This document shows positions 9,701 through 28,391 of a DNA stretch of 36,506 nucleotides, piece by piece. Below the pieces are notes generated by a model, which worked only from the letters and a program-made list of their open reading frames with translations, was not told the origin of the DNA and searched no databases. Positions within the stretch are counted from its first letter, which is position 1; the number at the start of each line of letters is the position of its first letter. The translations under genes were made by a program, and so were the position numbers. This stretch comes from Planctomycetota bacterium (GTDB lineage Bacteria > Planctomycetota > J058): NCBI GenBank assembly GCA_016765095.1, contig JAESQQ010000804.1, positions 1 to 36,506 on the forward strand. Direction: 5' to 3'.

Positions 9701-9778
9701 GAGTTGGCGGCTCTTGCGGAGCCTGGGGACCCGGCCCTAAAGGCGCTGCGCCGAATCCTCGCGGCGCTGCCTTACTGA
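6755..9778 (+). CDS. Twin anti-sigma zinc fingers + Lon-like (S16) protease domain + TPR protein
   Basis: 1007 residues, third gene of the sigma operon (ATGA overlap). Two ZAD/zf-HC2-type fingers lie in tandem: Cys166, His190-x3-Cys194-x2-Cys197, and Cys221, His246-x3-Cys250-x2-Cys253. This is the fold by which many anti-sigma factors grip ECF sigma factors. A domain at about 460-640 matches the proteolytic part of Lon: RGAGASVGLAAAL contains candidate Ser544, and GRVLPEKLRAA contains candidate Lys590, followed by ARVILPARNEADVP. The 46-residue Ser-Lys spacing is close to that of Lon. There is no AAA+ module, so the protease would not be an ATP-driven unfoldase. Residues about 650-1007 are Ala/Leu-rich helical repeats of TPR type. 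No transmembrane helix is seen, so it is probably cytoplasmic. The 255-460 region is unassigned. The function proposed, sensing through TPRs, sigma binding through the fingers and cleavage by the Lon domain, is inference. Confidence 0.82.
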   Translation: MSQDDRAELLELIELLEAGSQGPSLSLSLLGLCARQLSGGTFSAELRERAKAVLLPALGESAALAAGRYERSLAAAEAGVGDPFFADDNEAQRLVIEVLEARDRLQQGNDACRALELDAGEGFVLLGEEEERLSSLLDRALPANPLRREEAPASKLGWWWTYRLDCDENLLAQARSEALTPRLAKSLEEHLRGCPFCALELEAEADVDKLLSEELKDRPACPAPEELDALSRGNLPPHQARGLADHVELCAECRAALRAAPRARRREPAGVIRLGALIAAQLELVRFASAGPALALAPLEGLHRVTRMDSTSQEPLEIGVVHRSGDVQLVVWAPGLERVRVFDLEAGSLDPAQSDPVATLTAREGLFRLSLASGTGGGSMLLDLGELGTRVVDPEIVHLWAEPCDRAVVEAKQALALGSPALAEELLRVYASKLVPGLRRSLAEAAVRDLGIERRRATHLPTRGSVDTLVAWGGKGGLVRVSALTSDDRETPGQGAELCSALRLGGEVGLSFANKVRPIERKRFSKPVLELDLEGSELRGAGASVGLAAALARYSALLELDLPAGLLVTGVLVGASGRLEAVDGRVLPEKLRAAARERGRARVILPARNEADVPADMASTLDLSFATDFAQALDLAFGPEHRSDCQDDSIAGLRTRAKEAERSYRWKEAIELAEHLLVHPEAQDGDRLSAHWIVGICRTHQARPTEAASAFAVARTLRERLEANFQLDHVDAVYLAMGRADHLADLFRLEEAIDEVEAGLKLAPNLALRAKAFGLRGLFLHYADRQAEALESLQQASQALEGAPGGGDPQDRSRFFCWRALVLVAQNEFTEAGVALEAGLALSEEIQDERGRSANRVYLYRTRARLEAARGCWEESWTAAKLALEVLADSSGYPASSLRRLAGRALLELGRVEEGGAELKAGAERSPTPGSALNSLLSALPLAEHAAWLLETGTSPERAAEVLAEVRARLDAYAPAQERFSAELAALAEPGDPALKALRRILAALPY

Positions 9779-9880: not shown

Positions 9881-11245
9881 ATGCGAATCAAGAAGATCGA
9901 GCTTAGGAACTTTCGCGGGTTTGAGGAGAAGACCTTCCTCTTCGCCGATCAGTTCAACGAGCTGATTGGGAACAACGGGACCGGAAAGACTGCCCTCCTC
10001 GAAGCGCTGGCGGTCGTGTTGGGTTCCTATGTCCGCGGCATGGATCAGCTCTACCTCCGCCGTTACTTGGACGAACACGGTGAGCGCGGAGGCAGTCCGG
10101 TCTATGGGATTCGACAGAAGGACATCCGCCGCCGCAGCTTTGCTCTGGGTGGAGCCACCCAGATTGAACCGCAGTTTCCCGCCAGCGTCACTTGCACTGC
10201 GAAAGCCTGTGGCGAAACGATCTCCTGGGAGAGGAGCCTGGACGTCGAAGAGCAGGAGGACGCGCGGCAAAAGCTCGAAGGGGGTGAGGCACTCAACTCG
10301 GTCCTGAAGCCCGGTGGCCTGACCAAGGTCCTCGACGTGCTCCGCGGAGGTGTTCAAAACGGAAGCGACGTCGTCTTGCCCTTGGTGGCCTACTACGGGA
10401 CGGGCCGTCTTTGGCAGTCCTCTCGCGCGTTTCCTCCCCGCTCGCCTGGCTCGCGGGTGCTCGGTTACGACTGGTGCCTGGAGCCAAACGCCGACCCCCG
10501 CGGGTTCCTCCAGTGGTTCAAGGCCATGGAGCTAGCTGTGATCCAGCGGCAGGAAGCCCCAGAGGTGCTGCAGGCCGTTAAAGGTGCGCTTGAGGAGTGC
10601 GTTCAGGGTTGGTCGGGCTTCTATTACGACATGGAGCAAGACGCGCTCCTCGCGACAGGCGAAGGAGGAGACAAGCTCCCCTTTCACATGCTCAGCGACG
10701 GCGTCAGGAACATGCTGGCCATGGTCGCCGATCTCGCGCGGCGGGCAGCCGTCTTGAATCCTCACTTGGGGGCCGAGGCTGCCCGAGCCACCCCGGGTGT
10801 CGTGCTGGTCGACGAGCTCGATCTCCACCTGCACCCGAGGTGGCAACGGACCGTGGTCGGCGACCTGCGTCGAACCTTTCCCGAGCTTCAATTTGTGTGC
10901 ACCACTCACTCGCCCTTTGTCGTCCAACAGCTTCGGCCGGGCGAACTTCTGGACCTCAACGAGCTCAAGGGCGAGGAGTATCAGGACAAGAGCATTGAGG
11001 ACATCACTGAGAAGGTGATGGGCGTTCCCCTTCCGCAGCTCAGCGAGCGTCGCAAGGAAATGCTGGCCGCCGCTGAGGAGTATTTCGGCCTCGTCAAGCA
11101 GGGCCGAGCAGCCGACGCCAAGGAGAAGAATCGACTCAAGGAACGGCTCGACGAGTTGATCGCCCCCTTCAGCGACGACCCCGCCTACCAAGCCTTCCTC
11201 AAGCTGGAGCGCACAGCTGCCGGCCTCGGGGACCAGGACCGCTAG
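9881..11245 (+). CDS. ptuA: Septu defence ATPase PtuA
   Basis: 454-residue SMC/ABC-type ATPase of the two-gene Septu anti-phage system. N-terminal MRIKKIELRNFRGF is typical of this OLD/RecF-like group. Walker A is GNNGTGKT (30-37), a signature-like LSDGVRNML lies at 271-279, Walker B VVLVDELDLHLHP at 307-319 (Asp311, Glu312), and an H-loop TTHSPFVVQQL from 341. No TOPRIM nuclease follows, which fits PtuA rather than OLD. The start ATG has GAGGG at about 7 bases. It ends one base before the GTG of the HNH gene, the compact ptuA-ptuB order seen in Septu. I find no retron reverse transcriptase beside it, so this is a plain Septu locus. In the known system the ATPase and nuclease act as a complex. 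Confidence 0.88.
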   Translation: MRIKKIELRNFRGFEEKTFLFADQFNELIGNNGTGKTALLEALAVVLGSYVRGMDQLYLRRYLDEHGERGGSPVYGIRQKDIRRRSFALGGATQIEPQFPASVTCTAKACGETISWERSLDVEEQEDARQKLEGGEALNSVLKPGGLTKVLDVLRGGVQNGSDVVLPLVAYYGTGRLWQSSRAFPPRSPGSRVLGYDWCLEPNADPRGFLQWFKAMELAVIQRQEAPEVLQAVKGALEECVQGWSGFYYDMEQDALLATGEGGDKLPFHMLSDGVRNMLAMVADLARRAAVLNPHLGAEAARATPGVVLVDELDLHLHPRWQRTVVGDLRRTFPELQFVCTTHSPFVVQQLRPGELLDLNELKGEEYQDKSIEDITEKVMGVPLPQLSERRKEMLAAAEEYFGLVKQGRAADAKEKNRLKERLDELIAPFSDDPAYQAFLKLERTAAGLGDQDR

Positions 11246-11947
11246 GTGCGTCCCGTCGAGCGGGGTCCGGTACCAAAGGACGACTCCGGGGATCCAAGGG
11301 CGTTCACGAGGTATGGCCAGGCACGAGCGGACTTGATCGCCAGGATTGGCGAATACTGCTCGTACTGCGAAATGCACCTCGACGCTTCGTTGGCAATTGA
11401 GCACGCTCAGCCCAAGGGCCACCATGAAGACCTCGAGTTGGAGTGGGGAAACTTCCTCCTCGCTTGTGTGAACTGCAACAGCACCAAAGGCGCCCGAGAC
11501 ATCAACCTGGACGACTACTACTGGCCCGACGTTGACAACACCAACCTGGTGATCGACTACCTAGAAGGCGGCCTGGTCGTCCCTGCTCAGGGCCTCCAGG
11601 ATCACCCCCAACGCAAGGCTCGGGCAGAGCGCACGATTGCGCTGACAGGGCTCGATAAGGTCCCAGGCAACGACCCCGAGGCGAGGGATCGGCGCTGGAT
11701 CAACCGCTTCGAAGCCTGGGGTCGCGCCGCCACCGCTCTGCGGCGCCTTCGTCAGCGGGACACGCCAGAACTCCGCGATCAGATCGTGGACAACGCGCTC
11801 GACAAGGGCTTTTGGTCCGTGTGGATGGCCGTGTTCGGGGAGGAGAAGGCAATGAGGGAGCGTTTGCTCGAGAGCTTTCCGAACACGGCAAGCGATTGCT
11901 TTGACGACGAGCTTCGACCCATTCCCAGGCCAGGCGGGAGCCTCTAG
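11246..11947 (+). CDS. ptuB: Septu HNH nuclease PtuB
   Basis: 233-residue HNH endonuclease, the effector of Septu. The motif set is compact: EYCSYCEMHL with Cys38/Cys41, IEHAQPKGHH with His53, then WGNFLLACVNCNSTKG with Asn69 and Cys74/Cys77. These give the beta-beta-alpha-metal fold with a zinc knuckle, and IEHxxPK is characteristic of PtuB. GTG 11246 directly abuts the TAG of ptuA, so translation is coupled. The C-terminal half (about 110-233) is helical and likely contacts the ATPase. Catalytic and zinc residues all seem present. PtuB proteins cut DNA and in some systems nucleic acid more broadly; the exact target here cannot be read from sequence. Confidence 0.88.
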   Translation: MRPVERGPVPKDDSGDPRAFTRYGQARADLIARIGEYCSYCEMHLDASLAIEHAQPKGHHEDLELEWGNFLLACVNCNSTKGARDINLDDYYWPDVDNTNLVIDYLEGGLVVPAQGLQDHPQRKARAERTIALTGLDKVPGNDPEARDRRWINRFEAWGRAATALRRLRQRDTPELRDQIVDNALDKGFWSVWMAVFGEEKAMRERLLESFPNTASDCFDDELRPIPRPGGSL

Positions 11948-13955: not shown

Positions 13956-15644
13956 ATGAGCACGCAGTCTTCCGTCAACTTCGCCTTCTTGGCCGTTCAC
14001 GATCCGAGCTTCGATCGGATCGGGCGCTCGGCTGAGGCGCTTCTCTCGGCCGACCCCGACCTCGCGCTGACGTGTCTGCGCAAGCTGGCCGAGCTGATCG
14101 TGACGGGGGTCGCGCACCACGAGCGGGTGAGCTTCTGCACCATTGAGCTCAACGAGCGGATCAAGACCCTCCGCAGCCGCTGCTTGATCGGATTCGTGGA
14201 GGAGGAGGCCCTCGCGATCGTGCGGCGGGCGGGCAACGAAGGGACCCACGCCAAGTTTGGAGAGCTCTATCGCCTCGGGCCCCTCCGCAAGGAGGCCAAG
14301 AAGGCCATGAAATGCATGCGGCGGGTCGGGGTCTGGTTTCACCTCAACTATGGGAATGACCCAGACTTCGAGGACTCGGGCTTTAGCTTCGAGTTCTTGT
14401 CCGGCAGCGGGGCAGACGGCGAAGTCGGGGACGTCTCCGACAGATACGTCGACCTGCACGCGCTCCTCGACCGCGCAGAGATCGCGCTCGAGCGCCACCG
14501 CCGCGAACCCGAAGCACTCGAGGAGCTCGAGCGAGCTCGCAACAAGCTGCGCGCGGACCGCAGCAAGCTAGAGCCTTGGCAGGCCGAATTCTGCCAGCTT
14601 CGAATCGACAGCATTGAGCTCGCACGTCGCAACCACCACGGGGAGCAACCGCAAATCCAGGGGGCCCCCGCCGCGCTCGAGGAGCGCGACCGTGAGCTCC
14701 TACGAACCGGACGTCCAGAGGTCTTGGACGAAGTCACGCTCTTCCACAACCGCTGGGCCGTGGGGCAGCTCAACGCCTTCCTCTTCGAGGAAGCACTCCG
14801 TCAGATCGAGCGCTTCGTCGCGGGTCGCAGCGCTGCCCTCAAGGCGGGCTACGGAGTGTTCGGCACGGACACCGTCCAGGACTACAGCTTGGGGGCGCTC
14901 TTGGGGACCCAAGGGCAGACACAGGCATTTCTGGCCCACCAGGAGCGAGATCCCGGCTGGCTGGACATGGCGATCGAGACCTTCGAGGAGGCCCGTCAGC
15001 GCTTCTCCGACCCTGCCGACAGGGCCCGGCAGGACGCCTACAAAGCGCACGCGATCCTAGACCGTCTCCGCTTCAACCCGGACCAGGACCTCTCTCCTCG
15101 CGAGGAACGATTCCTAGACCGACTCGAGGCTCAGGCCCTAGAGGCAATGGCGGAGTTGGTCCAAGATCCGATCCCCAGCCAGGACTGGCAGCGGGTGTTC
15201 CAGGTCGGGCTCGCGCTCAAGATTGGCCTCGTGAGGGCTCGACCCCAAGGCGTGTCCTGGGAGTTCGCCCAGGCCCTCAACGGCGCGCTCGAGAAGTCGC
15301 TGGAGGACGAAAGCTGGAGCCCTCCCCACCCCTACGAGCAGATCTGCGGGGCCTTAGCGCTGCTCTACCCCCAGTGCCCAGGGCGAATCCGGGCTGCGTT
15401 AACGCGCAGCAGCCAGCAGGATTCGCTCGTCGGGATGATCGCCTTCGTCTACGGGTTGGAGGTTGAGCACCGTCGCGACTCGCTCACGCCCAAGCGCGTG
15501 GAGGGCTTCCTCCGTCGCTGTCAGGAGCAGCCAGGTTGGCCAGCAGGGCTTCGTTCGAGCTCAGCTCTCGACGCGCGGGTGCGAGAGCTTTGCTCGGAGG
15601 AAGGGGGAGGACCCCTGGCCATCTTGCCATTCCATTACGCCTGA
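13956..15644 (+). CDS. DUF4145-like N-terminal domain protein with helical C-terminal region
   Basis: 562 residues. The first 120 resemble the DUF4145 domain seen at the N-terminus of HsdR-type restriction subunits and other defence proteins: NFAFLAVHDPSFDRIGRSAE, then DPDLALTCLRKLAELIV, and AGNEGTHA at about 90. No helicase or nuclease motif follows. The remainder is all-helical, with stretches such as LERARNKLRADRSKLEPWQ and TFEEARQRFSDPADRARQDAY that look like degenerate TPR repeats. ATG 13956 has GAGG at 7 bases and a TAGACT -10-like box at 13933-13938. Its end overlaps the convergent GGCT gene by 10 bases. It may be an adaptor or sensor whose enzymatic partner is elsewhere. Confidence 0.72.
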   Translation: MSTQSSVNFAFLAVHDPSFDRIGRSAEALLSADPDLALTCLRKLAELIVTGVAHHERVSFCTIELNERIKTLRSRCLIGFVEEEALAIVRRAGNEGTHAKFGELYRLGPLRKEAKKAMKCMRRVGVWFHLNYGNDPDFEDSGFSFEFLSGSGADGEVGDVSDRYVDLHALLDRAEIALERHRREPEALEELERARNKLRADRSKLEPWQAEFCQLRIDSIELARRNHHGEQPQIQGAPAALEERDRELLRTGRPEVLDEVTLFHNRWAVGQLNAFLFEEALRQIERFVAGRSAALKAGYGVFGTDTVQDYSLGALLGTQGQTQAFLAHQERDPGWLDMAIETFEEARQRFSDPADRARQDAYKAHAILDRLRFNPDQDLSPREERFLDRLEAQALEAMAELVQDPIPSQDWQRVFQVGLALKIGLVRARPQGVSWEFAQALNGALEKSLEDESWSPPHPYEQICGALALLYPQCPGRIRAALTRSSQQDSLVGMIAFVYGLEVEHRRDSLTPKRVEGFLRRCQEQPGWPAGLRSSSALDARVRELCSEEGGGPLAILPFHYA

Positions 15645-16066
15645 GGACGGACTGGGCCTCGTCGACACTGCCCTTTGACCGAGAGGTTTCGGGGGCGCCA
15701 GAGGCTGGACTCGAGCCTCCGCCACGATCCCGAGTTCAGGTCATTTAGGACGTAGAACCACGCGAGGATGTCCTGGGCTTCTGTCTGGACAAGGCCTTCG
15801 CGTCTACGGTAGAGCAGCGGGTGCCCCTCGAGGCGATCGAGGTGGCTCAGGACGAAGCCTCGGTCGCGGAGTCGCAGGACTTCTCCCTCCACGAAGGCGT
15901 CGGGCTCGGATCGGGCGCCCGGGTAGGCGCCGTTGCACCAAAGGGCGTGGTCAGGCAAGCGAGCGGAGAGAGCCTCGAGGACGTGGGCGCCGATCAGGTC
16001 ATGGTTCACGCCGCCTCGCTTCAGCGTGCCGTAAACGAAGACCCAAACGCAAACCTCTTCGCTCAT
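15635..16066 (-). CDS. Gamma-glutamylcyclotransferase / AIG2-like protein
   Basis: 143-residue GGCT-fold enzyme. The substrate loop VFVYGTLKRGGVNHDLI lies at about 9-25, and VEGEVLRL and LDRLEGHPLLYRR follow, including the Glu expected to act in catalysis. Family members cleave or cyclise gamma-glutamyl amides and related isopeptide-like bonds. ATG 16066 overlaps the helicase-amidoligase stop (ATGA), so the two proteins are made together; a GTG at 16075 is an alternative. Amidoligases of the glutamine-synthetase-like family are known to pair with GGCT-like enzymes, so this is probably the editor or eraser of the bond made by the upstream ligase. The last 30 residues are basic and poorly conserved in appearance. 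Confidence 0.85.
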   Translation of the reverse strand: MSEEVCVWVFVYGTLKRGGVNHDLIGAHVLEALSARLPDHALWCNGAYPGARSEPDAFVEGEVLRLRDRGFVLSHLDRLEGHPLLYRRREGLVQTEAQDILAWFYVLNDLNSGSWRRLESSLWRPRNLSVKGQCRRGPVRPQA

Positions 16067-18291
16067 GCCCCCCACTTCGCCAGCGCGCTGAGTGCCTGGT
16101 CAGCGTGGGGGCACCAGGGGGCGGCCCAGGAGTTGGCGAGGAGGTGATCGCGCCTCTCGGCGAGGGCCGCGCGCATGGGTGCTTCGCAGCCGAGGCTACT
16201 CGCGACCGCCACAATGTCCCCATTGGGGCCTGGGTCGAGGGGGAGCCGGGGCGACTGGCCGCGGAACTCAGCCGAGAGCTGCTGTCCTCGGTGGGCCGCT
16301 TCAAGGATACGCATCCAGAGCGAGATCCAGAGCAGGACCTTGGGGGCCTCGTAGGTCCCGCTGTGGAGGCGAATCTCGATGGTTCCCAAGCCTCCTCGAT
16401 CAAGGAGGGGCGTTGGGTTGACGGCGAGGGTGCGAGACTTGCCGTCGGCGAAGCTGCGTCGCCAATCCTTGAGGTTTCGCAGGGTCTGGAGCTCCGAGAT
16501 CCGCTCGCTCACGAGCTGGCAGTGGCCGTTGCGAAAGCGCGAGGGAGCTACCAATGAGAGCAGGGCCGGCTCGACCTGAGCCACCGTTCCAAAGAGACTG
16601 CGAAGCTGCCGCGCGCAGGCTTTCCAGCCGAGGTGGAGGTGGAGCCCCGTGCGCGTGTTGACGGTCAGGGCGAACTCGGAGCAAGCCCCCTCCAACGCCC
16701 GGCAGGCGTCGACGATCTCTTCGCAGCCCGCCTCCCCGCAAAGGACTCGAGAGGTGACCTCCCAGCCACAGGTGCTGTCCCAGCTCACATTCCAGCGCGA
16801 GTGAGCGTTCGCCTCCAGTCCGTATTCGGGGATCGCCTGGGCCGCAACCAACCCCGGGCCGAGCGCGTCGCGGAGGGCAGCGAGGAGGCCGTCCCCCTTC
16901 TCCTGCCACTCTCGAGAGGGGGCACTTCCGGGGACGAAGCTTCGCTCGGTCAGCTCAAGCTCGACCCCGAAGGTCATTTGGGGTTGGATCTCGAGACCCC
17001 GGAGCAGCTCGTAGCCAGGCCGCCCGGACAATATCTGAATCGGAGCCGGCTCGTATTCGTGTTGCTCCAGACGAGGCCCGCGCTGCCGCTGCCTGTTTGG
17101 GCAACGCTCGCGCGTCTCCTTTCCGAAGAGCATTTCAGGTCGAACGAGGTGCTCCTGGTGGGCGAGGAGCCGGTCGTTGAAGAGGACGACGTTGAAGGAG
17201 TCCTTGCCAGACGCCAGTCGAGCCCCGCGACCGACCATTTGCGCGAAGAGAATCTCGCTGGTCGTGGGTCGCGCCAAGAAAACCGTCTTGGTGTCGGGAA
17301 TGTCGACGCCCATGGTCAGCATGCCGACGTTGATCAGGACTCCTGCGGGGGCCCTTCGGAAACGATCCAGCACCTCGCGGGCCTCTGCTGACGCCATGCC
17401 GGAGTGGAGATAGTCGGCTGCGACACCGGCCAAGCGGAACCGCCTCGCGAGCTCTTCAGCGTGGTCCTTCCCGCAGGCGAACACGATCGTCTTGCCGAAG
17501 TCGTGGCTCCGGTAGGTCTCCACAATCCTCTCGTTGCGAGTGGAGTCGTCGCCCAAGTCCACGAGGGAGCTTGGGGAGAAGTCACCGCTCCTACTGCTGA
17601 GTCGCGGTGTCCACGACGTTCCGGTGTCTACCGGATCCCAGACTATTGGGCTCGCCAAGCGTCCGCGATCGACAAGTTCTCGGAAGCTGATCGCACGCCC
17701 GACCAACTCGAGGGTCGTCGCCGCTCGAGGCGTCGCGGTCAAACCAAGAATCGTCGCCCTCCGCCTGTGGTCACGCCGAATCTTCTTCTGGAGGACCTTG
17801 TTTTCTCCCCAGTGGACCTCGTCGATCACCACCAGGTCGAAGCGGCTTCGCTTCAGCCAAGGTCGGTTCGCGTAGGTCCCGAGCGTGGTGTAGGTGATCG
17901 CGGCGTTGCGGATTTCTGGGAGCTGGCGAAGCCCCCGAGCGCCCACCTTGGCGATCCAGCGCCCACCCAACTCAAAGCGAGCCGCCAAGTCACGCGCGGC
18001 TTGCTCAAGGAGTCGCCAATCTCTAGCGAGCCAAAGGACCCGCTTCCCTCGAGGAATCCAGTCCTCACCAATCCAATCGTTGGCGAGGCGCGTTTTGCCA
18101 CCTCCCGTCGCGAGTGCAATCAGGAGTTCCTGTCCCGGCTGCGGAGGGCAGGCTCGATCGCGCAGCGCTCCGAGGAGCTCCTCCTGGTGCTCGAAGCGAG
18201 TGAGGCGCGCCTGCGCAGGATCGTGGTCAAAGGTCCGAGGAGAGGCAGGAGCGAGTTGGTAGGGCCTAGGTCGGCGACGAGAGGGTGGCAT
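16063..18291 (-). CDS. SF2 helicase fused to glutamine-synthetase-like amidoligase
   Basis: 742-residue two-part enzyme. Residues about 30-400 are a DEAD/DEAH (HsdR/type-III-like) SF2 motor: Walker A ATGGGKT (61-67), motif II DEVH (157-160), motif III TATPR (185-189), a second RecA lobe with VLINVGMLTMGVDIP, and motif VI QMVGRGAR (351-358). Residues about 438-680 match the Amidoligase_2 family: FGVELEL (441-447, Glu444 and Glu446), WEVTSRVL (510-517), TGLHLHLG (548-555), a conserved SRFRNGHC, and TIEIRLHSGT (637-646). These are the ATP/metal and active-site motifs of a COOH-NH2 ligase. ATG 18291 has AAGGAG at 4-5 bases. It is the fourth gene of the MoxR/VWA operon and overlaps the GGCT gene. 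A nucleic-acid motor joined to a peptide-bond ligase is unusual; the substrate is unknown. Confidence 0.87.
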   Translation of the reverse strand: MPPSRRRPRPYQLAPASPRTFDHDPAQARLTRFEHQEELLGALRDRACPPQPGQELLIALATGGGKTRLANDWIGEDWIPRGKRVLWLARDWRLLEQAARDLAARFELGGRWIAKVGARGLRQLPEIRNAAITYTTLGTYANRPWLKRSRFDLVVIDEVHWGENKVLQKKIRRDHRRRATILGLTATPRAATTLELVGRAISFRELVDRGRLASPIVWDPVDTGTSWTPRLSSRSGDFSPSSLVDLGDDSTRNERIVETYRSHDFGKTIVFACGKDHAEELARRFRLAGVAADYLHSGMASAEAREVLDRFRRAPAGVLINVGMLTMGVDIPDTKTVFLARPTTSEILFAQMVGRGARLASGKDSFNVVLFNDRLLAHQEHLVRPEMLFGKETRERCPNRQRQRGPRLEQHEYEPAPIQILSGRPGYELLRGLEIQPQMTFGVELELTERSFVPGSAPSREWQEKGDGLLAALRDALGPGLVAAQAIPEYGLEANAHSRWNVSWDSTCGWEVTSRVLCGEAGCEEIVDACRALEGACSEFALTVNTRTGLHLHLGWKACARQLRSLFGTVAQVEPALLSLVAPSRFRNGHCQLVSERISELQTLRNLKDWRRSFADGKSRTLAVNPTPLLDRGGLGTIEIRLHSGTYEAPKVLLWISLWMRILEAAHRGQQLSAEFRGQSPRLPLDPGPNGDIVAVASSLGCEAPMRAALAERRDHLLANSWAAPWCPHADQALSALAKWGA

Positions 18292-18304: not shown

Positions 18305-19711
18305 TTAGGGCAGATTTCGAACGGAAGTGGCGAGCGAGCAGAGATCGCCGGGCCTCGAGCGAGCGTGGCGTTGCGTGAGTAGGACGTGGACCTCGACTCC
18401 TGCCTGTCGCGCTCGCTGTCGGCTGGCGCTCGGGACGGGTCCGTATCCGTCGGTGATCACGAGCGCCTTTCGCGTTCGACTCTCTGCGGCGTGGTCGAGC
18501 ACGCAGCCGAATTCGGTCCCAAGGGTGGTTCGGACGAAGCCCTCGGAGAGGCCTTGGAGGGGGAGGTCGTTGACCTCGGTCGAGAACATGTGGATCGGGT
18601 CGGCGAGGAGGGCGCGGAGGCTGTCGAGGAGGCCGTAGATCCGGCCCTGGGCGGCTCGGGTTGAGCCGGAGACGTCGACATAGACCCTCGCCTTGCGATT
18701 CTGTGAGCGAGGGTCGGGAACCCGGGGGTGGAAGAGGCCTGGCCAGGAGCCAGCCGCGAGCAGGTAGAGGTCCCGGCGTGAGGGTCGAGGAATCGGCGTT
18801 GCCTGGCGCTCGCTCGGCTCGACTCGCGCGGAGGAATCCGGGCTAAGGACACGCTGGAGTTCGCGCCGTAGCTTCGCGATCGCGCGGCTGCTCGGCGAGT
18901 CCAACGCAAGCTGGCCGGGCGTCGATTCGCGCCCCTTCCCATAGCCGAGGATCTCCTCGAGGCCCTCGAGGCCAGTCAGGGCTTCCCCTTCTTCGTCTTC
19001 CTCGCCTTGGCCCTCGTGATCCCCTAGGAAGACTGGGGCCTCCAGGCCTTCTGGCAGAAAGAGGAGCAGCTCCGTCGTGAGGCTTGCTCGACAGCTCTCT
19101 CCCAGCCAGGCGGCGACGTACCAAGCCGACACTTGCTGGGGCAAGACGCCTGGAGGAACCTTGCCTCTGAGGGCTCGGGCGGCAGCTCCGGCGACGTGGT
19201 GATTGGGCGCAGCAGCCCTCGCGACGAGGTCGTGGAGAGGAAGCCCTGAGAGCGGACTTCGGACGAGCAGAGTCGGCGGGAGGAGGAGGATCCCTGGGAA
19301 GGAGGCTCCTCGATAGAGACGCCTGAGCAGCGGGGGAGGGCTGGGGAAGAAGTTGAGCAGGAGCCAAGAGTTGATCCGAATGTCTGCGACGAGGTTGGCC
19401 GCCAGGCGCCCCCGCTCGCTCCTTCGAGCAGCGGCGGAGTCGAGGTCGCCTTGGAGCCTGTGGAGCACCTCGTGGGCGAGGACGAAGATCAAGTCGTCGT
19501 CGGTTTGGAGCTGCTTTTCGAGGAAGACTGGATCGAGCTCGATCCGGCGCTGGTCTCCCTGACCTCCGATCCGAGCAGTGCCGATCCCTGCCACGAGCGA
19601 GAGTTCGCAGCGATCAGTGAGCGCGGCCAGGAGCAGCCCGAGCCGAGCGTCTAGGAGCCAGGCCCTCTCGACCGCGCGATCTAGGCGGAGGGTGAATTCG
19701 CCCGCCCTCAC
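18305..19711 (-). CDS. DUF2201-type metallopeptidase-like / VWA domain protein
   Basis: 468 residues with the usual DUF2201 order. The N-terminal zincin-like part has HEVLH (80-84) in LIFVLAHEVLHRLQGDL, and a downstream NLVADIRIN that likely supplies a further ligand. An acidic linker (about 230-245, EGQGEEDEEGE) leads to a C-terminal VWA domain with MIDAS motif DVSGS (346-350), a Thr in TTLGTEFG (about 395-402) and ITDGYG (419-424). Such proteins are partners of MoxR AAA+ ATPases, here encoded two genes upstream. The GTG start overlaps the preceding stop (GTGA at 19708-19711), and a 13-base gap leads to the helicase-amidoligase gene. Whether the zincin site is proteolytic or only structural is not known for this family. 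Confidence 0.86.
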   Translation of the reverse strand: MRAGEFTLRLDRAVERAWLLDARLGLLLAALTDRCELSLVAGIGTARIGGQGDQRRIELDPVFLEKQLQTDDDLIFVLAHEVLHRLQGDLDSAAARRSERGRLAANLVADIRINSWLLLNFFPSPPPLLRRLYRGASFPGILLLPPTLLVRSPLSGLPLHDLVARAAAPNHHVAGAAARALRGKVPPGVLPQQVSAWYVAAWLGESCRASLTTELLLFLPEGLEAPVFLGDHEGQGEEDEEGEALTGLEGLEEILGYGKGRESTPGQLALDSPSSRAIAKLRRELQRVLSPDSSARVEPSERQATPIPRPSRRDLYLLAAGSWPGLFHPRVPDPRSQNRKARVYVDVSGSTRAAQGRIYGLLDSLRALLADPIHMFSTEVNDLPLQGLSEGFVRTTLGTEFGCVLDHAAESRTRKALVITDGYGPVPSASRQRARQAGVEVHVLLTQRHARSRPGDLCSLATSVRNLP

Positions 19712-20829
19712 GAGGCAGGGCCCAGATCGCAGAGGATTAGGAACCCGTCGTGCAGATTCTCAGCGGCTCGCGCGCGTGGAGTCCCGTCCTCGGGCAAGTA
19801 GATATCGCCCACGAGGTGGCGCAGGACCCAAGCCACCAGACGAGGCTCCTCGATCACTGGCTCTCGGCCGCTGAGCGGAACGAGCGCCGTGCTGGGGCGG
19901 ACGATCGCCGGAGTGGCGAGGACCTTGTGCCTCGGCCGACGGAGCCGGTGCTCAGGCGAGAGCAGCTCTTGGAGTTCGCCCTCGGGAGGGACTCGGACCA
20001 AGGCCCGCGCAGAGAGGTGCCCCTCGAAGAGGGCCTCGCCGCTCAGGTTCCCCCGGCACACGCCCGAGCGGTCGAAGGCTCGCAAGAACTCCTCGGGGAT
20101 CTGGTGCACCGTTCGCTCGCGCAGCGTCGAGCCGTCCCAGATCAGGCAGTCGTCGCTCTCGGAGACGAGCACGCTGAGGCTGCGGGGAACCGAGACTCCG
20201 CGGTGTCTGTGAAGCGTCGGAGCGCTCAGCGAGCACATGGAGAGCGCTGAGCCGCGAAGCCGGCTCGCGCCGAGCTGGGTCTCGATCGGATAGTGGAGAT
20301 CGAAGACCTCTTGGAGGGCGAGGACGCGGTTGAAGTGAGGCGGGCCCTTTTCTTCGGGCAAGCCTGAATAGCGTAGAGCCGGCCTCAGGTCTAAGGCGGC
20401 TTCACACTCGCTCTCCCCCTCCTCTCGGGCGACGCGGAGGAGGCGTCGCAGTCGGTGATCCGAGGTCTCTAGCTCGGCGTCCCTGAGGAAAGCCACGAGG
20501 TCGGGAGCGGAGGAAGCGGTGAGAAAGTCGGCTTCCAAGGGAGCCGCACCCGGGGAACAGAGACGGAACCTCGCAGCAGATTCCCCAGCGCTCTTCTTGC
20601 GGGCCCGAGTCGCCGACCGGCCGGCCACACAGGGCTTGCGATCGCAGACCGGTCCGAGGCGATCGTCGAGGAGCCGAAGGGCGGGGACTCGCAGCTCCTC
20701 CTTTCGGTAGAGCCGGACGGCCCCGTGAACGGGAGCCTCGCGCCAAACCTGGATCCGCACCCCTGTGGAGCCGCGCTGGGCGTCGAGGGTGTCGTTCACG
20801 GGAAGAAACTTCTGTGGGAAGCCGATCAT
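19708..20829 (-). CDS. Hypothetical protein of the MoxR/VWA operon
   Basis: 373-residue protein I cannot assign. It is translationally coupled on both sides: its ATG overlaps the MoxR stop (ATGA at 20826-20829) and its stop overlaps the VWA start. No signal peptide or membrane helix is visible. It has a basic, Ser/Ala-rich patch at about 70-90 (GRSATRARKKSAGES), a pair of Cys in VCDRKPC, and an all-alpha/beta C-terminal half with PRLVAWVLRHLVGDIYLPEDG. Its fixed position between ATPase and VWA partner suggests a third component, for instance the client or a specificity factor of the MoxR/VWA machine. This is inference from gene order. Confidence 0.75.
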   Translation of the reverse strand: MIGFPQKFLPVNDTLDAQRGSTGVRIQVWREAPVHGAVRLYRKEELRVPALRLLDDRLGPVCDRKPCVAGRSATRARKKSAGESAARFRLCSPGAAPLEADFLTASSAPDLVAFLRDAELETSDHRLRRLLRVAREEGESECEAALDLRPALRYSGLPEEKGPPHFNRVLALQEVFDLHYPIETQLGASRLRGSALSMCSLSAPTLHRHRGVSVPRSLSVLVSESDDCLIWDGSTLRERTVHQIPEEFLRAFDRSGVCRGNLSGEALFEGHLSARALVRVPPEGELQELLSPEHRLRRPRHKVLATPAIVRPSTALVPLSGREPVIEEPRLVAWVLRHLVGDIYLPEDGTPRARAAENLHDGFLILCDLGPAS

Positions 20830-22373
20830 GTGCTCAACCCCTCTAGTTCGCTGAACACGTCGTCGATCAACTCACCGAGCGAGAGGCCGCAGGGTGGAGT
20901 GCCGCGTTGCCCAGGTATGACGGAGGCCGGAAATCGGCGGTCGTTCAGCTTGAAGGCCGAGTGCGCGATCCGCGTCGCCTGCTGCCGCTTGCGGTTCGGA
21001 CTGAGCGCCTCTCGAAGGCGGTTTCCGTCATCTAGATCCCCGAGGAGGGAGCGGAGGCTCGTGTTTCGCCAGGCGAAGACCCGGACGGCGGTCCGGAGCA
21101 CGAGGTGTGTCTCGTCCGTCGGGAGACGGAGGGTCCCCCGAGTGAGGGCGCGAGCGAGCTCGGTCAGCCCGATCAGGGCTGCTGCTCGCTGCTCGGGGCT
21201 TTGATACCTCCCTTCAGCCTCCTCGAGGAGTCGAGTCACCGCTTGCTGACGATCCTCAGCGTTGAGCTGGCTCGCCCGCGCGAGGAGCAAGGCTGCAATT
21301 TGGCGGGGCTCCCTCGGGATCCTCAGGCGTCCGAGCAGGTTCTGACCACGAATCGACGCCATCCCAGACTCGTGGGCCGCGCGGAGGAGGGGCTCGCGCA
21401 GGTCCTTCCCGGTGGCCGCGAAGGGGAGCCCGCCACGAAGGACGCGGAGCAAGATCGAGCCGGCCTCCTTCACCGAGAGCCTCCGATCGAGGAGCTGGCC
21501 GGCGACGGCGAGGGAAGCGGCTCCCAGGCGAAAGAGCATTCCCAGTCGCCGACCGTCGAGTCCGGCCTCGCTGCGCTCCAAGAAGCGCCCCGCCACGTTG
21601 GCCCAAAGCGCGACTTGCGCCAACTCGTCCTCCTCGAGCGCGGCGTAGTCCTCCCGAGCAGCCTCCAGCAAAGCGCGCAGGCGGGGAGCCGTGGCTCGAG
21701 AGCCGGCGGCTGGCTCCTCCAGCGCGAGAGAGGCTCCCGAGCGAATGATCTGCAGTCGTTGGGCCTTGCTGAAGCCTGAAACTTCGGGGACCACGACCAC
21801 GGCCGTGAAGCGGCCCGCGAGGGCTTCGTCGAGAGGGAAGGTCCCCTCAAAGCCGACCGGGTTCATGGCGCTTAGCACAACCTTCAAGCGGGGCAGAGCG
21901 AGCCCCATGATCGTCCGGGAGTGGATCACTTCGAGCCACTTGTTCTGCATTGAGCTGTTGGCTCGCGAGAGCTCGTCGATCAGGACCCCGTCCGCGCTCG
22001 TGATCGAGATCGGAGTCGGGGCATAGCGGACCTCGCCCTCCGCCAGGGCCTGGGGAATCGGGAGTCCGATCACGTCCTCGAAGAGGCTCTTGCTCGCGTC
22101 GTAGACCCGAAACACGTCGCAGCCCATAACCTGCTGCCCGAGTCGGCGGGCCGCGAGGGTCTTGGCCGCGCCGATCCCGCCGACGAGCAAGATCGGCTCG
22201 CCGAGCACGAGCCCGGCCACGATCGGGAGCGCGACCCCGCCGAAGCCCACGATCCCCAACTCAAGGAAGGCCTCTTCGAGCGAGGCGTCGATCGTCGATC
22301 CCAGGTCGCTGGCTGGGTCGCACTTGGCTCGGGTGAGCGGAGGAGGAAGGGTAGAGCGGAAGGTGGACGTCAA
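20826..22373 (-). CDS. MoxR-family AAA+ ATPase
   Basis: 515 residues, somewhat longer than a typical MoxR because of a helical C-terminal extension from about 300. Motifs: Walker A GGIGAAKT (65-72), VYDASKSLFEDVIG in the helix-2 insert region, Walker B GVLIDELSRA (129-138, Asp133/Glu134), sensor 1 in LSAMNPVGFEG, and DEALAGRF with the arginine-finger region. MoxR ATPases act as chaperone-like remodelers with VWA partners, which fits the downstream DUF2201/VWA gene. The start is TTG 22373, preceded by AGGA about 8 bases away; no ATG fits before the conserved core. It heads a five-gene overlapping operon. A hairpin and about 166 bases separate it from the two small genes upstream on the same strand. 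Confidence 0.88.
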   Translation of the reverse strand: MTSTFRSTLPPPLTRAKCDPASDLGSTIDASLEEAFLELGIVGFGGVALPIVAGLVLGEPILLVGGIGAAKTLAARRLGQQVMGCDVFRVYDASKSLFEDVIGLPIPQALAEGEVRYAPTPISITSADGVLIDELSRANSSMQNKWLEVIHSRTIMGLALPRLKVVLSAMNPVGFEGTFPLDEALAGRFTAVVVVPEVSGFSKAQRLQIIRSGASLALEEPAAGSRATAPRLRALLEAAREDYAALEEDELAQVALWANVAGRFLERSEAGLDGRRLGMLFRLGAASLAVAGQLLDRRLSVKEAGSILLRVLRGGLPFAATGKDLREPLLRAAHESGMASIRGQNLLGRLRIPREPRQIAALLLARASQLNAEDRQQAVTRLLEEAEGRYQSPEQRAAALIGLTELARALTRGTLRLPTDETHLVLRTAVRVFAWRNTSLRSLLGDLDDGNRLREALSPNRKRQQATRIAHSAFKLNDRRFPASVIPGQRGTPPCGLSLGELIDDVFSELEGLST

Positions 22374-22539: not shown

Positions 22540-23247
22540 TCAGGCGGAGGCGGTCTCCTTAGAGCCCGCCTCCTCGAGCAATCGAGTCAGGTCCTGTTGG
22601 ACGACTGTGGAGAAGAGCACGAAGCGTTCTTCCCACTCCTGCTCCTTGAGCCTCTGGCCAGGGGCGATCTCTTCAAGGGTCTCGCCCAGCTCGAGCACCT
22701 CGCTCTGCTCTTGGAATTCGAGGTTCGCGCGGACCATTCGCTCGAGGAGCACGCAGCGCGCTCGCCAGGCGGCCTGCAGGCTCTCGGCCTCGTTGAGCTG
22801 CCTGAGCAGGCTTAAGACGTCCGCCTCGTCGAGGACCGCGCCTGCGTGCAGCTCCAACTCGGCGAGCTCAGAGGAGCCCTCCTCGATCGCGCATCCGCTC
22901 GCCGCAAGGAGGCGCTCGACCCGGTCGACCGTGCCCGGCCCGACGCGGCTCAGCGCCAGCCAGTGAGCGCGAGTCAGCCGAGACAGCTCCGAAAGCGGAA
23001 TTGAGCGGAACTGCCCACCCTGGGCCCACTCCGTCCCTGCGAAGTAGCCCTTGACCGCGATCCGCAGGGCAGGTCGGAGCTGGCTTGCCAGCTTCGCGAG
23101 CTTCGGGTCCGGGTTTCGCTCCAGCGAATTCCAGGTCAGGGGCTCAGCGCCCTCGCCCCGCAAGGCCGCGCTCGCCCAGGCCATTGCCGCTTCGGGCGTG
23201 GAGTCCTCCGCGTAGGCGCGCTGAAGACTCCGAAGGAGGCGATCCAC
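22540..23247 (-). CDS. Hypothetical protein with helix-hairpin-helix / alpha-CTD-like segment
   Basis: 235 residues, no family recognised over the full length. Residues about 82-118 (SIPLSELSRLTRAHWLALSR followed by GPGTVDRVERLLAASG) resemble the helix-hairpin-helix fold of the RNA polymerase alpha C-terminal domain, a DNA-contacting module. The last 100 residues are acidic, Glu/Leu-rich and probably coiled coil. GTG 23247 lies 2 bases after the stop of the 87-residue gene, so the two are co-translated. They precede the MoxR operon on the same strand and may belong to it, though a 166-base gap intervenes. Confidence 0.65.
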   Translation of the reverse strand: MDRLLRSLQRAYAEDSTPEAAMAWASAALRGEGAEPLTWNSLERNPDPKLAKLASQLRPALRIAVKGYFAGTEWAQGGQFRSIPLSELSRLTRAHWLALSRVGPGTVDRVERLLAASGCAIEEGSSELAELELHAGAVLDEADVLSLLRQLNEAESLQAAWRARCVLLERMVRANLEFQEQSEVLELGETLEEIAPGQRLKEQEWEERFVLFSTVVQQDLTRLLEEAGSKETASA

Positions 23248-23861: not shown

Positions 23862-24830
23862 CTACCGATTCCGCTGCGCGCGAAGCAGAGCGTCTGGTTT
23901 CAAGACCTCGACCTCGTCGCCGAAGCTCAGCACCCAGCGAGAGACTTCGATCAGCGAGCCGACTCGAAAGGTCATGAGCAAGCGCCCGTCTTCCTGCTCG
24001 GCGAAGTGCTGAGAGGGGTGCCACGTCCGCTCAAGGAGGTCTCGCTTGAGCCAGGCCTTGTCGACGAAGAGCAGCTCGACCTCGTGAGTCTCGCGAGGCG
24101 GATACTCAACGAAGATCCCAAAGGAGTGGTGGAGCACCTGCTCGGGCTGGTAGTCCGGCGGATAGACGAAGTGCTCCTCGTGGACCTCAACCTCGAGCAT
24201 TCGATCGACGACGTAGTTGTAGATCCGCTCCTTGCCGGGATAGCGAGCGAAGAGGTGGAGCCCTCCTCGGTGGAGCGCGAGGGTTAGCGGCTCGAGCTCG
24301 TGGTGGTTCGCTTCGCCGTCGAGCGCCTCGTAGCTCAAGCGAATTGGGTGGTGGTCCACCAGCGCCTGAAGGAGCGCCTCCAAGACCTCACCTTGGGCCG
24401 AGTAGTCCTTGGGGGCGCTGGGCACGAAGTAGAGGACTCGGTCTAGGTCGCAAGCCAAAGCGCCCGCCCCGCCTTCGCTCGCGTGACCGAGCAGGTCGGG
24501 TCGACCCGGAACGAAGTCTTCTCGCCCGAGGGCCGCCAGCACCATTCGAGCCAGTCGTCCGGCGGCGGCTTGGACGAGGAGCTGAGCGACGTGCGGCTTC
24601 TCTCCCTCTGGGTCGGCGAGCCGTAGGCAGCGAGCCTCGCCCTCGCCGACCTCCTCGACGCGGCTCTTGCCCTCGCGGAAGAAGGGGAGGAACTGCTCTT
24701 GGAGGGTCTGGCGGTAGTGGCGATAAGTGCGCTCGGCGACGCCAAGCTCCCCACGCAGCTCGGAGACCCGCCAGCCGCGACGGCGCGTCAGGAGGCGGTG
24801 CACGAGGGTCGCGTAGTTGAGGTTAGCCAT
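23862..24830 (-). CDS. WYL-domain transcriptional regulator
   Basis: 322 residues from ATG 24830. An N-terminal HTH (about 1-45, RRGWRVSELRGELGVAERTYRHYRQ, split here by position: residues 16-40) is followed by a WYL-type ligand-binding domain: RLSYEALDGEANHHELEPLTLALHRGG region (about 165-190) and the LFARYPGKERIYNYVVDRM core. A C-terminal extension has LMTFRVGSLIEVSRWVLSFG. WYL regulators often control phage-defence and DNA-damage loci and may sense nucleic-acid ligands. A 15-base palindrome lies 24 bases before its start. It is divergent from the BCS1-like AAA+ gene, so it is the natural regulator of that pair and perhaps of the leftward MoxR operon. The 15-codon longer reading from 24875 lacks support. 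Confidence 0.85.
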   Translation of the reverse strand: MANLNYATLVHRLLTRRRGWRVSELRGELGVAERTYRHYRQTLQEQFLPFFREGKSRVEEVGEGEARCLRLADPEGEKPHVAQLLVQAAAGRLARMVLAALGREDFVPGRPDLLGHASEGGAGALACDLDRVLYFVPSAPKDYSAQGEVLEALLQALVDHHPIRLSYEALDGEANHHELEPLTLALHRGGLHLFARYPGKERIYNYVVDRMLEVEVHEEHFVYPPDYQPEQVLHHSFGIFVEYPPRETHEVELLFVDKAWLKRDLLERTWHPSQHFAEQEDGRLLMTFRVGSLIEVSRWVLSFGDEVEVLKPDALLRAQRNR

Positions 24831-24853
24831 GCCCGAGAGCCTACTTGACCAGC

Positions 24854-24868
24854 GGCAAGATCCTTGCC
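24854..24868. promoter_or_regulatory. Palindromic candidate operator before the WYL gene
   Basis: GGCAAG-ATC-CTTGCC is a perfect inverted repeat with 6-base arms, 24 bases upstream of the WYL start and in the divergent promoter region. Its place suits autoregulation by the WYL protein. I do not see a second copy next to the AAA+ gene. Confidence 0.35.
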
Positions 24869-25089
24869 AGCCCAAGTGGCACCCTTCCGCCTCACACCAG
24901 AGGGAGTCTGAATGGGAAACGACCGCCGAGGTCTAGACGTCTTGCTTGCTGCTCGCTGCGAACCGAATCGCGGCAGCCGCCTTTCCTTGACAGGGCAGAC
25001 CCCTGATCCGAGTCGGCTCGGCTGCGCGAAGCCCAGCCTTCGGTGGGGCACGACGAGGCTCGCGCCGGTGGTGACTCGCGGAGCGAGCG

Positions 25090-25123: not shown

Positions 25124-26500
25124 ATGAGCGGCGGGATTCGCTTCGACGGGGACTACGGCGCCTCACGCTTTGAACGACGCCTCGCGCAGACCCTCGAGCG
25201 GGGCCAACTGCCAGGCACCTTTGGGCTGCTCCAGCAGGTGGTCGGGCACTGGGCCTTTCCTCGTGACGAGCAGAGCCCGCTGCGAGTCGGCAAGGCAATC
25301 ATGGATAGCGTGGGCTCGCTCCTCTCCTTCCGCGAGGGGCGGCGCGAAGTCGTCGAAGACGAGGGATCGCCAAGCAAGCGCTGGCTGCGGCGCCAGGGTT
25401 ACACCGACGAGGTCGGGGCCGAGAGCCGCGGGCTGAATTCCTTCGTGCGTGGCGCTTTGAGTGGACTCGAATTCGCCAATCGGCGAGCTCGTTCGGACCT
25501 CGGCGAACTCGACCGGAGCGTGCTCAAGGAGTTCTCGATCGGGAGCGGCGCCTCGGCCTATTTGCTCGACCCCTGGGGTGGCGAGCCGACCGGATTTAGG
25601 GGGCCGCAGACCCAGGCCTGGGCGGGGCCCTATTGCAAGCCGGAAGACCGTAATCGGCTCCTGGCTTTCGTGCGCGAGCGGATTTGGCGAGAGCGTCTTG
25701 GTTCGAGCACGCTCTTGCTCGACGTGTGTGGCCCTGGGGAGAGCGGGGACGACGACGGCGTGAGCGTGACCGCGGTCACAGACAGCTTCGACTTCGCCTC
25801 CGCCAACGAGGCTTTCAACGACGTCGAGGCCCTGGCCCGGCGCTGCGGGGCCTTCCTGATCGGCGGTCGCTCGCGACGTCTGCTCTTCCACGGTCCTCCA
25901 GGGACCGGAAAATCCACCCTGGCGCGCGCGGTCGCTCGGGAGCTCGGCTCCCGGACGGTGCTCCTCGGACACGAGGCGACGACTCGCCTCGCCGACGCCT
26001 CCTTGGTGCAGATATTGGCTCTGCTGGAGCCTGGGGTGCTCGTACTCAACGACGTGGATCGGACGGGCGAGCACGAGGCCCTGGCTCTCCTGCATGGGTT
26101 GGAATCCCTGGTCGATCAGCCGCTGGTCACGGTGCTCACGGCCAACGACGTGGAGACGCTGGATCCCGCGATCCTCCGCCCCGGTCGGGTGGACGAAATC
26201 CGCAGGATCATCGAGCCCAACGTCGAGAGCCGGAAGCTAATCCTCGAGCACTACGCGGAGCGCAACGAGTTCACGCTGAGCGCCTCGCAAGGGGAGTCCT
26301 TCCTCGAGGGGAGCGAGGGCTTCAGTCCGGCTGACATTCGGGAGTTCGCTGAGATCGCCCGAGCAGTCGGAGTAGAGCTGGCGCTAGACGAGCTGGAGCG
26401 AATTTCCGCTCAGCGCGAACTCTACGCTGGCGAGCGGTGCCAGGACTTCAACCGCTCACGCCGGGGCGTCTACCGCCCACGCATGCGGCGGCGGGCCTAG
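25124..26500 (+). CDS. BCS1-like AAA+ ATPase
   Basis: 458 residues. The AAA+ module occupies about 245-420: Walker A GPPGTGKS (257-264), Walker B region VLVLNDVDR (305-313), sensor 1 TAND (339-342), and DPAILRPGRVDE with arginine fingers (about 348-358). In Walker B the usual acidic residue before the catalytic Asp is Asn309, giving ND where BCS1 has ED. The 240-residue N-terminal part is specific and shows no transmembrane helix, unlike mitochondrial BCS1. The C-terminus is Arg-rich. GAGGGG lies 7 bases before ATG. It is followed 9 bases later by the Cys-rich gene, and is divergent from a WYL regulator. A role in defence is suggested by context; the client is unknown. Confidence 0.78.
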   Translation: MSGGIRFDGDYGASRFERRLAQTLERGQLPGTFGLLQQVVGHWAFPRDEQSPLRVGKAIMDSVGSLLSFREGRREVVEDEGSPSKRWLRRQGYTDEVGAESRGLNSFVRGALSGLEFANRRARSDLGELDRSVLKEFSIGSGASAYLLDPWGGEPTGFRGPQTQAWAGPYCKPEDRNRLLAFVRERIWRERLGSSTLLLDVCGPGESGDDDGVSVTAVTDSFDFASANEAFNDVEALARRCGAFLIGGRSRRLLFHGPPGTGKSTLARAVARELGSRTVLLGHEATTRLADASLVQILALLEPGVLVLNDVDRTGEHEALALLHGLESLVDQPLVTVLTANDVETLDPAILRPGRVDEIRRIIEPNVESRKLILEHYAERNEFTLSASQGESFLEGSEGFSPADIREFAEIARAVGVELALDELERISAQRELYAGERCQDFNRSRRGVYRPRMRRRA

Positions 26501-27244: not shown

Positions 27245-28283
27245 GCGAGGGCTTCTTGCCGCGCCGCTCGTTCGCTTTCTCTGGGCCGGTCTCGTCCTGC
27301 TTCTCTCCCCGTTTCGGCTTCGCGGCCGCGTGCCTAAGTTGGGATCCGCTTGGATAGGGGACCTTGCCTGAGGGCACGAGCAAGGAGGCGGAGTCCAAGT
27401 GCCGGTCCTGGTCGTCGAAGAAGATATGTGGCCTGAGGGCCTTTAGAACCGGGCCCTTGGGGAGGCCGCCGAGAAAGAACACCTGGTCGACGTAGATCCC
27501 CCAGTGGCGCAGGGTGTAGACGACCCGTCGGTCAGCCGGAGCGTCCCTGGCTGTCACGATCGAGATCCGCACGGGCGAGTATTCGACGCGCGCCGGGATC
27601 CGGTCTTGGAGCCTCGCCAACTTCCTGAGCAAGTTCGCGTACGGCCCCTCCAGCATGGGTGTCCTCGTCGCCGCGAGTTCCGTCTCATGGAACCTCTCGA
27701 GGCCCTCGGTCTTGAAGACGATCTCACTCTCCTCGTTGAAGAGGACCGCGTCCCCGTCGAACGCGATTCGGACCTCGTCCGCTGACTCCTGCTGAGATTC
27801 GCCGCTCGGCGGGGGGAGCAAGACGGCCGTCGCACAGGTGCCCGCGTCGGTAGCGCGCTGGGCGTCCTCTGGGTTGGTCGTCAGGAACAGATCGACGTTG
27901 AAGGCTTGGAGGTAGTCCACGACGGACTCGCCGCCGGTAAAGGCCGAACGTGTCGTCTCGAGCCCCTGGCTCCGAATCGAATTCAAGACGCGAAGTCCAG
28001 TCTCTGGGCTATTGCGCGACATCACGACGACCTCAACCAGCGGAGAGGCCCCGTCCGCCTCCATGTACCGATTCAGCCCCAGCAAAGCGCGGATCAAGGG
28101 GTAGCCGGTGCCTGGCTCGAGTGGTTCGTCCTCTCGCGCGAGCACGAACGCGCGATAGGTCTCGATCGCGAAGTCGGGATTCTCCTCCATGGCCGAGCAG
28201 AAGGCGGCGTGCTCCACGGTCAGATCGAAGAGCGCGGTGCTCGTAATACCGACGACGAGGGTGTCCGAGAGATCGAGGGGCAT
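27210..28283 (-). CDS. 5'-nucleotidase (cytosolic NT5C1-like family)
   Basis: 357-residue member of the 5'-nucleotidase family that includes cytosolic NT5C1 enzymes (HAD fold), releasing phosphate from nucleoside monophosphates. Signatures are LVVGITSTALFDL near the N-terminus, EPGTGYPLIRALLGLNR, VVVMSRNSPETGLRVLNSI, AFNVDLFLTTN, the HAD motif IAFDGDAVLFNEESE, IVTARDAPADRRV and FFLGGLPKGPVL ending in IFFDDQDRH. The last 45 residues are a Lys/Arg-rich tail (RRGKKPSPRRRD) outside the enzyme domain. I chose ATG 28283, which begins just before the conserved region; TTG 28328 is an alternative. It is divergent from sbcDC, 108 bases away, and may recycle nucleotides released by nuclease activity. 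Confidence 0.88.
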   Translation of the reverse strand: MPLDLSDTLVVGITSTALFDLTVEHAAFCSAMEENPDFAIETYRAFVLAREDEPLEPGTGYPLIRALLGLNRYMEADGASPLVEVVVMSRNSPETGLRVLNSIRSQGLETTRSAFTGGESVVDYLQAFNVDLFLTTNPEDAQRATDAGTCATAVLLPPPSGESQQESADEVRIAFDGDAVLFNEESEIVFKTEGLERFHETELAATRTPMLEGPYANLLRKLARLQDRIPARVEYSPVRISIVTARDAPADRRVVYTLRHWGIYVDQVFFLGGLPKGPVLKALRPHIFFDDQDRHLDSASLLVPSGKVPYPSGSQLRHAAAKPKRGEKQDETGPEKANERRGKKPSPRRRDAPDAES

Positions 28284-28391
28284 GAGAGTCAGTATGACCG
28301 GACGGCCGGACGTGTCGCCCGAGCGCAAGCCGCAGGCAGGCGGCGCTGGAGTGCTGGTAGCTTCCTTGTCTTAGCAAGGGAGAGCACGACC

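Follow-up and report, generated by a model that had tools for sequence, protein, structure and literature searches.

A conserved gene between MoxR and zincin/VWA genes encodes a candidate third subunit of a bacterial ATPase–metalloprotease machine

Introduction

In a planctomycete genome, a gene of no recognised family lies between the genes for a MoxR AAA+ ATPase and for a DUF2201-type protein that joins a zincin to a VWA domain. Its product, which we call X, and the shorter protein that takes the same place in other bacteria, here called mid, make up a real and conserved third part of a little-studied MoxR + zincin/VWA machine for protein remodelling, a status that is well supported by comparative evidence. 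In our view X likely serves as a third, dedicated subunit in a MoxR–X–(zincin+VWA) machine, where its proposed role is one of binding and remodelling. The function that we prefer for both X and mid is probably non-enzymatic, as an adaptor or regulator. MoxR-VWA pairs are widespread, and to our knowledge clients have been identified for few of them. A fixed third subunit that is missing from the searched family libraries would be a direct handle on the clients of these machines, and what was a lone hypothetical gene is now part of an operon pattern across many bacterial phyla.

Results

The window, by which we mean the whole stretch of 36,506 nucleotides that was analysed, carries X as the middle gene of a three-gene cassette (Table 1). 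The original prediction had described a 373-residue protein without known motifs, coupled by overlapping ends to both neighbours, and each part of that description was borne out. Window X matched no model in Pfam, NCBIfam, PADLOC or PHROGs, and none of the seven X homologues scanned matched any Pfam family at E ≤ 10. Four bases are shared at each junction, ATGA where the MoxR stop meets the X start and GTGA where the X stop meets the VWA start. Among the nine X loci with junctions examined, the MoxR/X start-stop overlap is present in all nine and the X/VWA overlap in at least five; at one locus outside these nine (L022), a gap of ~220 bases separates MoxR from X.

Table 1. Positions of the cassette and its neighbours in the window
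Feature	Position	Strand	Remarks
Cas3g-type protein	2035-4701	minus	Defence gene
ECF-like sigma factor, then two overlapping genes	5080-9778	plus	341 aa; 1007 aa with sub-threshold Lon_C match
Septu PtuA/PtuB	9881-11947	plus	Defence genes
DUF4145 protein	13956-15644	plus	Similar to PDC-M16A
Gamma-glutamyl cyclotransferase (GGACT/AIG2-like)	15635..16075	minus	Pfam, 77.3 bits; overlaps helicase-amidoligase gene
SF2 helicase fused in one frame to Amidoligase_2	16063..18291	minus	Pfam; 13 bases after VWA gene
DUF2201-type zincin + VWA	18305..19711	minus	Overlaps X by 4 bases; DUF2201_N (PF13203), 24.8 bits, cut-off 23.2
X	19708..20829	minus	373 aa, ATG start; middle-slot protein between MoxR and VWA genes
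X C-terminal domain, residues 262-373	19711..20046	minus	Probable kin of short mid protein, from hhalign and helix/strand order
X middle region, residues 180-261	20047..20292	minus	Beta-rich in model; no solved structure with Z ≥ 5
X N-terminal region, residues 21-179	20293..20769	minus	Alpha+beta in model; basic low-confidence loop at ~65-84
MoxR AAA+ ATPase	20826..22373	minus	Overlaps X by 4 bases; Pfam AAA_3, 46.9 bits, above cut-off
235-aa upstream protein	22540..23247	minus	No family; upstream of MoxR
WYL/WCX-domain regulator	23862..24875	minus	Pfam, PADLOC WYL; upstream of operon
FtsH/PAN/IetA-like single AAA protein	25124-26500	plus	Divergent from WYL regulator; N-terminal ~230 residues without assignment
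SbcD/SbcC-like pair	27906-33328	plus	LmuB similarity

The window genome (8.57 Mb in 987 contigs, 84% complete) holds two further copies of X, 80% and 27% identical to that of the window. The closer one belongs to a second copy of the whole cassette, 80–88% identical (L013, G000:C710, 1-6978; the C710 copy). Between these two cassettes X has dN 0.129 and dS 0.311, compared with dN 0.067 and dS 0.262 for MoxR and dN 0.069 and dS 0.337 for VWA, so that dN/dS is highest in X (0.42), followed by MoxR (0.26) and VWA (0.21). Mean identity over seven loci is 31% for X, 44% for MoxR and 41% for VWA. By these measures X is a coding gene and the fastest-evolving member of the cassette, and all three genes are under purifying selection, X the least. 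Fully invariant columns of the X alignment are only Gly, Leu and Pro, so X carries no recognisable enzyme signature; the near-invariant columns add Val, Asp and Arg. The idea that X is an artefact was rejected on its conservation, and an internal duplication relating its N- and C-terminal halves was unsupported (E 0.5).

In total we found 11 X homologues, in Planctomycetota and Myxococcota. An X profile detected seven copies in 4 of the 10 genomes of the window's order, and a scan of 392 genomes of the phylum Planctomycetota, taking the best four candidates per genome, added at least one further locus (in genome G033). The Myxococcota contribute three loci (L044, L046 and L047). Of the named records among the relatives, L041, L042 and L045 are Planctomycetota and L043 is an unclassified groundwater bacterium. 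Searches of phages and plasmids with X gave no match, and neither did the corresponding searches with mid.

The central claim of the original prediction, an unrecognised component of a MoxR/VWA operon, stands: X lies directly before the DUF2201/VWA gene at all 11 loci, with MoxR upstream at 10. Within the window's order, a profile of the X-type VWA found the same four genomes and seven loci as the X profile. Pairwise distances over seven loci agree closely between X and VWA (r 0.97; as high in 1 of 2000 label permutations) and between X and MoxR (r 0.92; 9 of 2000). On a tree of 77 VWA sequences, the 11 X-type rows form one clade (support 100/98), and the X-type label changes once, versus 10.5 times in label shuffles. 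Comparison shows the MoxR, X and VWA genes to be a conserved, mostly overlapping cassette that is inherited as a unit. That X is instead a passenger gene with no functional tie to MoxR and VWA is hardly credible: its conserved slot, overlaps, co-occurrence, tree congruence and adjacency to VWA at 11 of 11 loci all speak against this, and the sole point in its favour is locus L033 (G033:C51, 2473-6045), where X and VWA have no adjoining MoxR and where, on ORF reading, the DNA ahead of X, in the place expected for MoxR, holds an HTH segment that looks transposase-like. Upstream at L033, one gene resembles a regulator and, judged by eye, is WYL-like.

As a single-protein query against genome contigs X detected no relative, and wider relatives were gathered with the VWA alignment as query. 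This gave 127 relatives, the best 80 of which were analysed. In 60 of these best 80 loci the slot, meaning the place between MoxR and VWA (or, at loci cut off by a contig end, the place ahead of VWA), holds a short uncharacterised protein of ~150–300 aa, mid; in a further seven it holds X. Absence of the middle gene from homologous operons would have spoken against the original prediction, and yet the profiles detect X or mid at 58 of the 61 loci, among the best 80, that have MoxR upstream. The 13 of 80 loci with no middle match comprise seven cut off no more than 230 bases from the VWA match, three with more DNA present and no MoxR match (L080, L085 and L110), two whose slot holds an ORF unmatched by the X and mid profiles (L115 and L118), and L063, where no gene separates MoxR from VWA. 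The last locus (Elusimicrobia, 1178-3751) has a VWA that is sister to the X-type clade on a long branch, and a 332-aa gene just before MoxR.

The operon pattern spans Planctomycetota, Myxococcota, Pseudomonadota, Chloroflexota, Acidobacteriota, Gemmatimonadota, Verrucomicrobiota and Armatimonadota. No fusion joining X or mid to MoxR or VWA was present among 219 matching frames. Ten mid members had nothing better than E 0.02 in Pfam, and a mid search of the 10 genomes of the window's order, where a positive control was absent, came back empty. In the mid alignment (for example L096:3408-3914 and L067:4721-5227) a short N-terminal LLHNMSxPP motif is conserved and the rest evolves fast.

Both partner proteins keep the residues expected of their families. 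The MoxR P-loop (G65, G68, K71) and Walker B (D133, E134) residues are invariant in 7 of 7 sequences. The window VWA protein has an N-terminal zincin motif, HEVLHRLQGD, and a C-terminal VWA domain with a MIDAS (DVSGS, T, D). All seven VWA partners of X that were scanned match PF13203 at E ≤ 1, and the VWA rows match only DUF2201-type, VWA_3, SprT-like and M48 models in Pfam. Across 77 VWAs, HExxH is intact in 76, the remaining row having an ambiguous letter, and DxSxS is present in 77, as is the later Asp of the MIDAS (D421) in all 77 aligned rows. Such conservation of HExxH and MIDAS makes it probable that the VWA partner functions as a metalloprotease and that its VWA domain binds clients. 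The residue that follows HExxHxxxG may be a third zinc ligand (D89 in the window VWA); all 66 mid-type sequences have His there, and 9 of the 11 X-type ones have Asp.

The MoxR sequences bear on the reading that X is a divergent bpX component of the beta-propeller ternary systems. Window MoxR falls near the bpMoxR model (25.8 bits against a cut-off of 27), which three of seven MoxRs match at E ≤ 0.001, and several have a GxxGTAKS/T P-loop resembling the propeller/FtsH-system variant in the available part of the published account (PMC7159879). However, X and VWA have no propeller or bpX match in Pfam; X and mid showed no clear margin over reversed controls against the bpX2 and bpX3 profiles, the only two bpX families compared; the genomes with bpX2 or bpX3 in our scan include neither the window genome (G000) nor G003; and the VWA partner is a DUF2201-type zincin. 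A bpX identity for X is therefore very unlikely.

Profile-profile comparison, proposed with the original prediction as a way to place X, gave a divided answer: the C-terminus of X matches mid, but X and mid profiles searched against PDB sequences found nothing better than E 0.01. For X residues 262–373 against 60 mid sequences, hhalign gave a score of 22.8, with E 0.0014 for this single comparison and a probability of 17%. None of 300 column shuffles reached 22.8 (maximum 15.9). Controls against mid reached at most 16.0 for 31 MoxR/VWA windows, 13.3 for reversed X and 13.9 for nine other X windows. Two X-family subsets with no member in common scored 19.9 and 23.0, the highest control being 16.0. 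Structure prediction, the second route proposed, likewise succeeded in part: it yielded a moderate model of X and no PDB lookalike. The best AlphaFold model of X has pLDDT 73 and pTM 0.66 from 8 sequences (the other four models, 52–60), and that of mid has pLDDT 84.5 from 51 sequences, with a core of about 97. In the DSSP lines, read without structural superposition, the C-terminal part of X and mid have their strands and helices in a similar order. Foldseek and VIA-align comparisons of both models with the PDB returned no significant match, which does not prove that X or mid has a new fold, and Foldseek comparison of the mid model with viral models was likewise without a significant match. 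We conclude that the C-terminal ~110 residues of X appear related to mid, although the match is modest and rests in part on the common slot and the common order of secondary structure. The LLHNMSxPP motif is absent from the X alignment, and X is therefore described as a C-terminal relative of mid and not classed as a mid protein.

In the mid model LLHNMSxPP is a low-confidence stretch ahead of the confidently modelled core, and it has the look of a peptide for docking or processing. A motif that could serve in this way, together with the intact zincin partners and the standing of X as the fastest-evolving part of the cassette, would suit a reading in which X and mid are substrates of the zincin, that is, fast-evolving precursors cut by the MoxR-driven protease so that an active fragment is freed. 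We consider this unlikely, since X has no N-terminal motif of this type, the part common to X and mid is a folded C-terminal domain, not a peptide, and X is mostly folded in its model.

All three X copies of the window genome sit among defence genes. Those around the window copy are listed in Table 1; the C604 copy has as neighbours an AriA/HEC-01A-like ATPase and a DrmD-like helicase, as well as a large protein that matches Avs2 over a short stretch; and the C710 copy adjoins a restriction-type helicase. After the VWA gene of the C710 copy, residues 1–59 of the helicase-amidoligase remain at 76% identity, with a PLD-type helicase beyond the remnant; the helicase-amidoligase was thus once part of that copy's cassette also. 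The 235-aa upstream gene of the window is not conserved with the cassette, as a search of 10 genomes gave only the gene itself and one weak partial match. Given this setting of all three copies, the X cassette of the window genome could plausibly act against invaders or in stress. Because the neighbours of the Myxococcota loci L044 and L046 do not look defensive when their ORFs are read by eye, a defence role is a lead and not a result.

The same neighbourhood can be read another way: X may be an inhibitory or immunity subunit under which the zincin/VWA protein stays inactive, and a trigger such as phage infection would allow MoxR to remove it. Such a subunit would fit a gene placed between activator ATPase and protease, where overlapping starts would give matched amounts, and the available part of PMC12839542 describes iSTAND MoxR-vWA systems that include a sensor component and peptidase effectors in a latent state. 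Some X loci are not clearly defence islands, though, and no known inhibitor fold emerged from the Foldseek/VIA-align comparisons; we would not expect this account of X to prove correct.

Discussion

For such in-between proteins the original prediction raised client or adaptor as common roles, of which we prefer adaptor, or else regulator. The adaptor or regulator role that we favour for X and mid has two grounds: X has no conserved catalytic residues, and MoxR-VWA pairs such as RavA-ViaA already offer a scheme in which the VWA protein captures a peptide or client and the ATPase remodels it (PMC7159879, available in part). The C-terminal domain of X, which it has in common with mid, would bind the zincin/VWA protein, and X would connect that protein to the MoxR ring, whereas the extra N-terminal and beta-rich regions of X may recognise a particular client or signal in a clade-specific way. 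ATP hydrolysis by MoxR would then remodel the complex, with the client being unfolded, activated or cut by the zincin. Coupled to MoxR and VWA in this manner, X or mid would control or target the protease. Two loci weigh against this reading: L033, which has X–VWA and no MoxR, and L063, which has no middle gene.

In what is available of Kaur et al. 2020 (PMC7159879), MoxR-vWA ternary systems are described with VMAP, iSTAND, FtsH or beta-propeller components. The likeness to the cassette is considerable, as both have a MoxR, a MIDAS-bearing VWA and a conserved third protein, co-encoded and fast-evolving, and some of the systems in that account are tied to defence. The differences are that X matches no Pfam family and that its VWA partner is a DUF2201 zincin-VWA; in Pfam comparisons, none of the MoxR–X–VWA genes contained VMAP, STAND, FtsH or propeller components or effector modules. 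The direct partner of X belongs to the DUF2201/'VWA-like' putative metallopeptidases (PF13203, PF09967), but X itself does not. With RavA-ViaA and other MoxR/VWA chaperone pairs the cassette may have its mechanism in common, by analogy with the available part of their description; relative to such pairs, the VWA here has in addition a zinc-protease motif that is intact, and loci lacking a third subunit are rare. A literature search that covered few subscription papers turned up no description of a DUF2201-type third component, and the same search, thin on such papers, gave no relevant paper on DUF2201 or COG3864 with MoxR.

A broader picture would be that MoxR–middle–zincin/VWA is an undescribed, widespread bacterial ATP-driven metalloprotease or chaperone-protease whose third subunit has a new fold, with X as an enlarged sensor/adaptor version in Planctomycetota and Myxococcota that forms, in some genomes, a new immune system. 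We offer this combination tentatively, and as a whole it is more doubtful than the subunit role of X.

Phages bring out the dispensability of the middle gene. Group 2.2 jumbo phages have a two-protein pair for virion assembly, a MoxR and a metallopeptidase-vWA, according to the available part of PMC7824862. The arrangement there resembles ours in setting MoxR beside a VWA with an N-terminal metallopeptidase, but it comprises two proteins, whereas a third gene stands between MoxR and VWA here. Among our own relatives, a locus on a viral contig (L121) has VWA and then MoxR with no middle gene, and genes 34 and 35 of Delftia phage RG-2014, between its ATPase and VWA, are unrelated to X and mid. 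Since the phage versions examined have either no middle gene or unrelated ones, MoxR and zincin-VWA can apparently work without an X or mid subunit. The RG-2014 locus of this N4-like phage (L147, 15024-17982) runs from an AAA ATPase through two small genes to the DUF2201 zincin-VWA.
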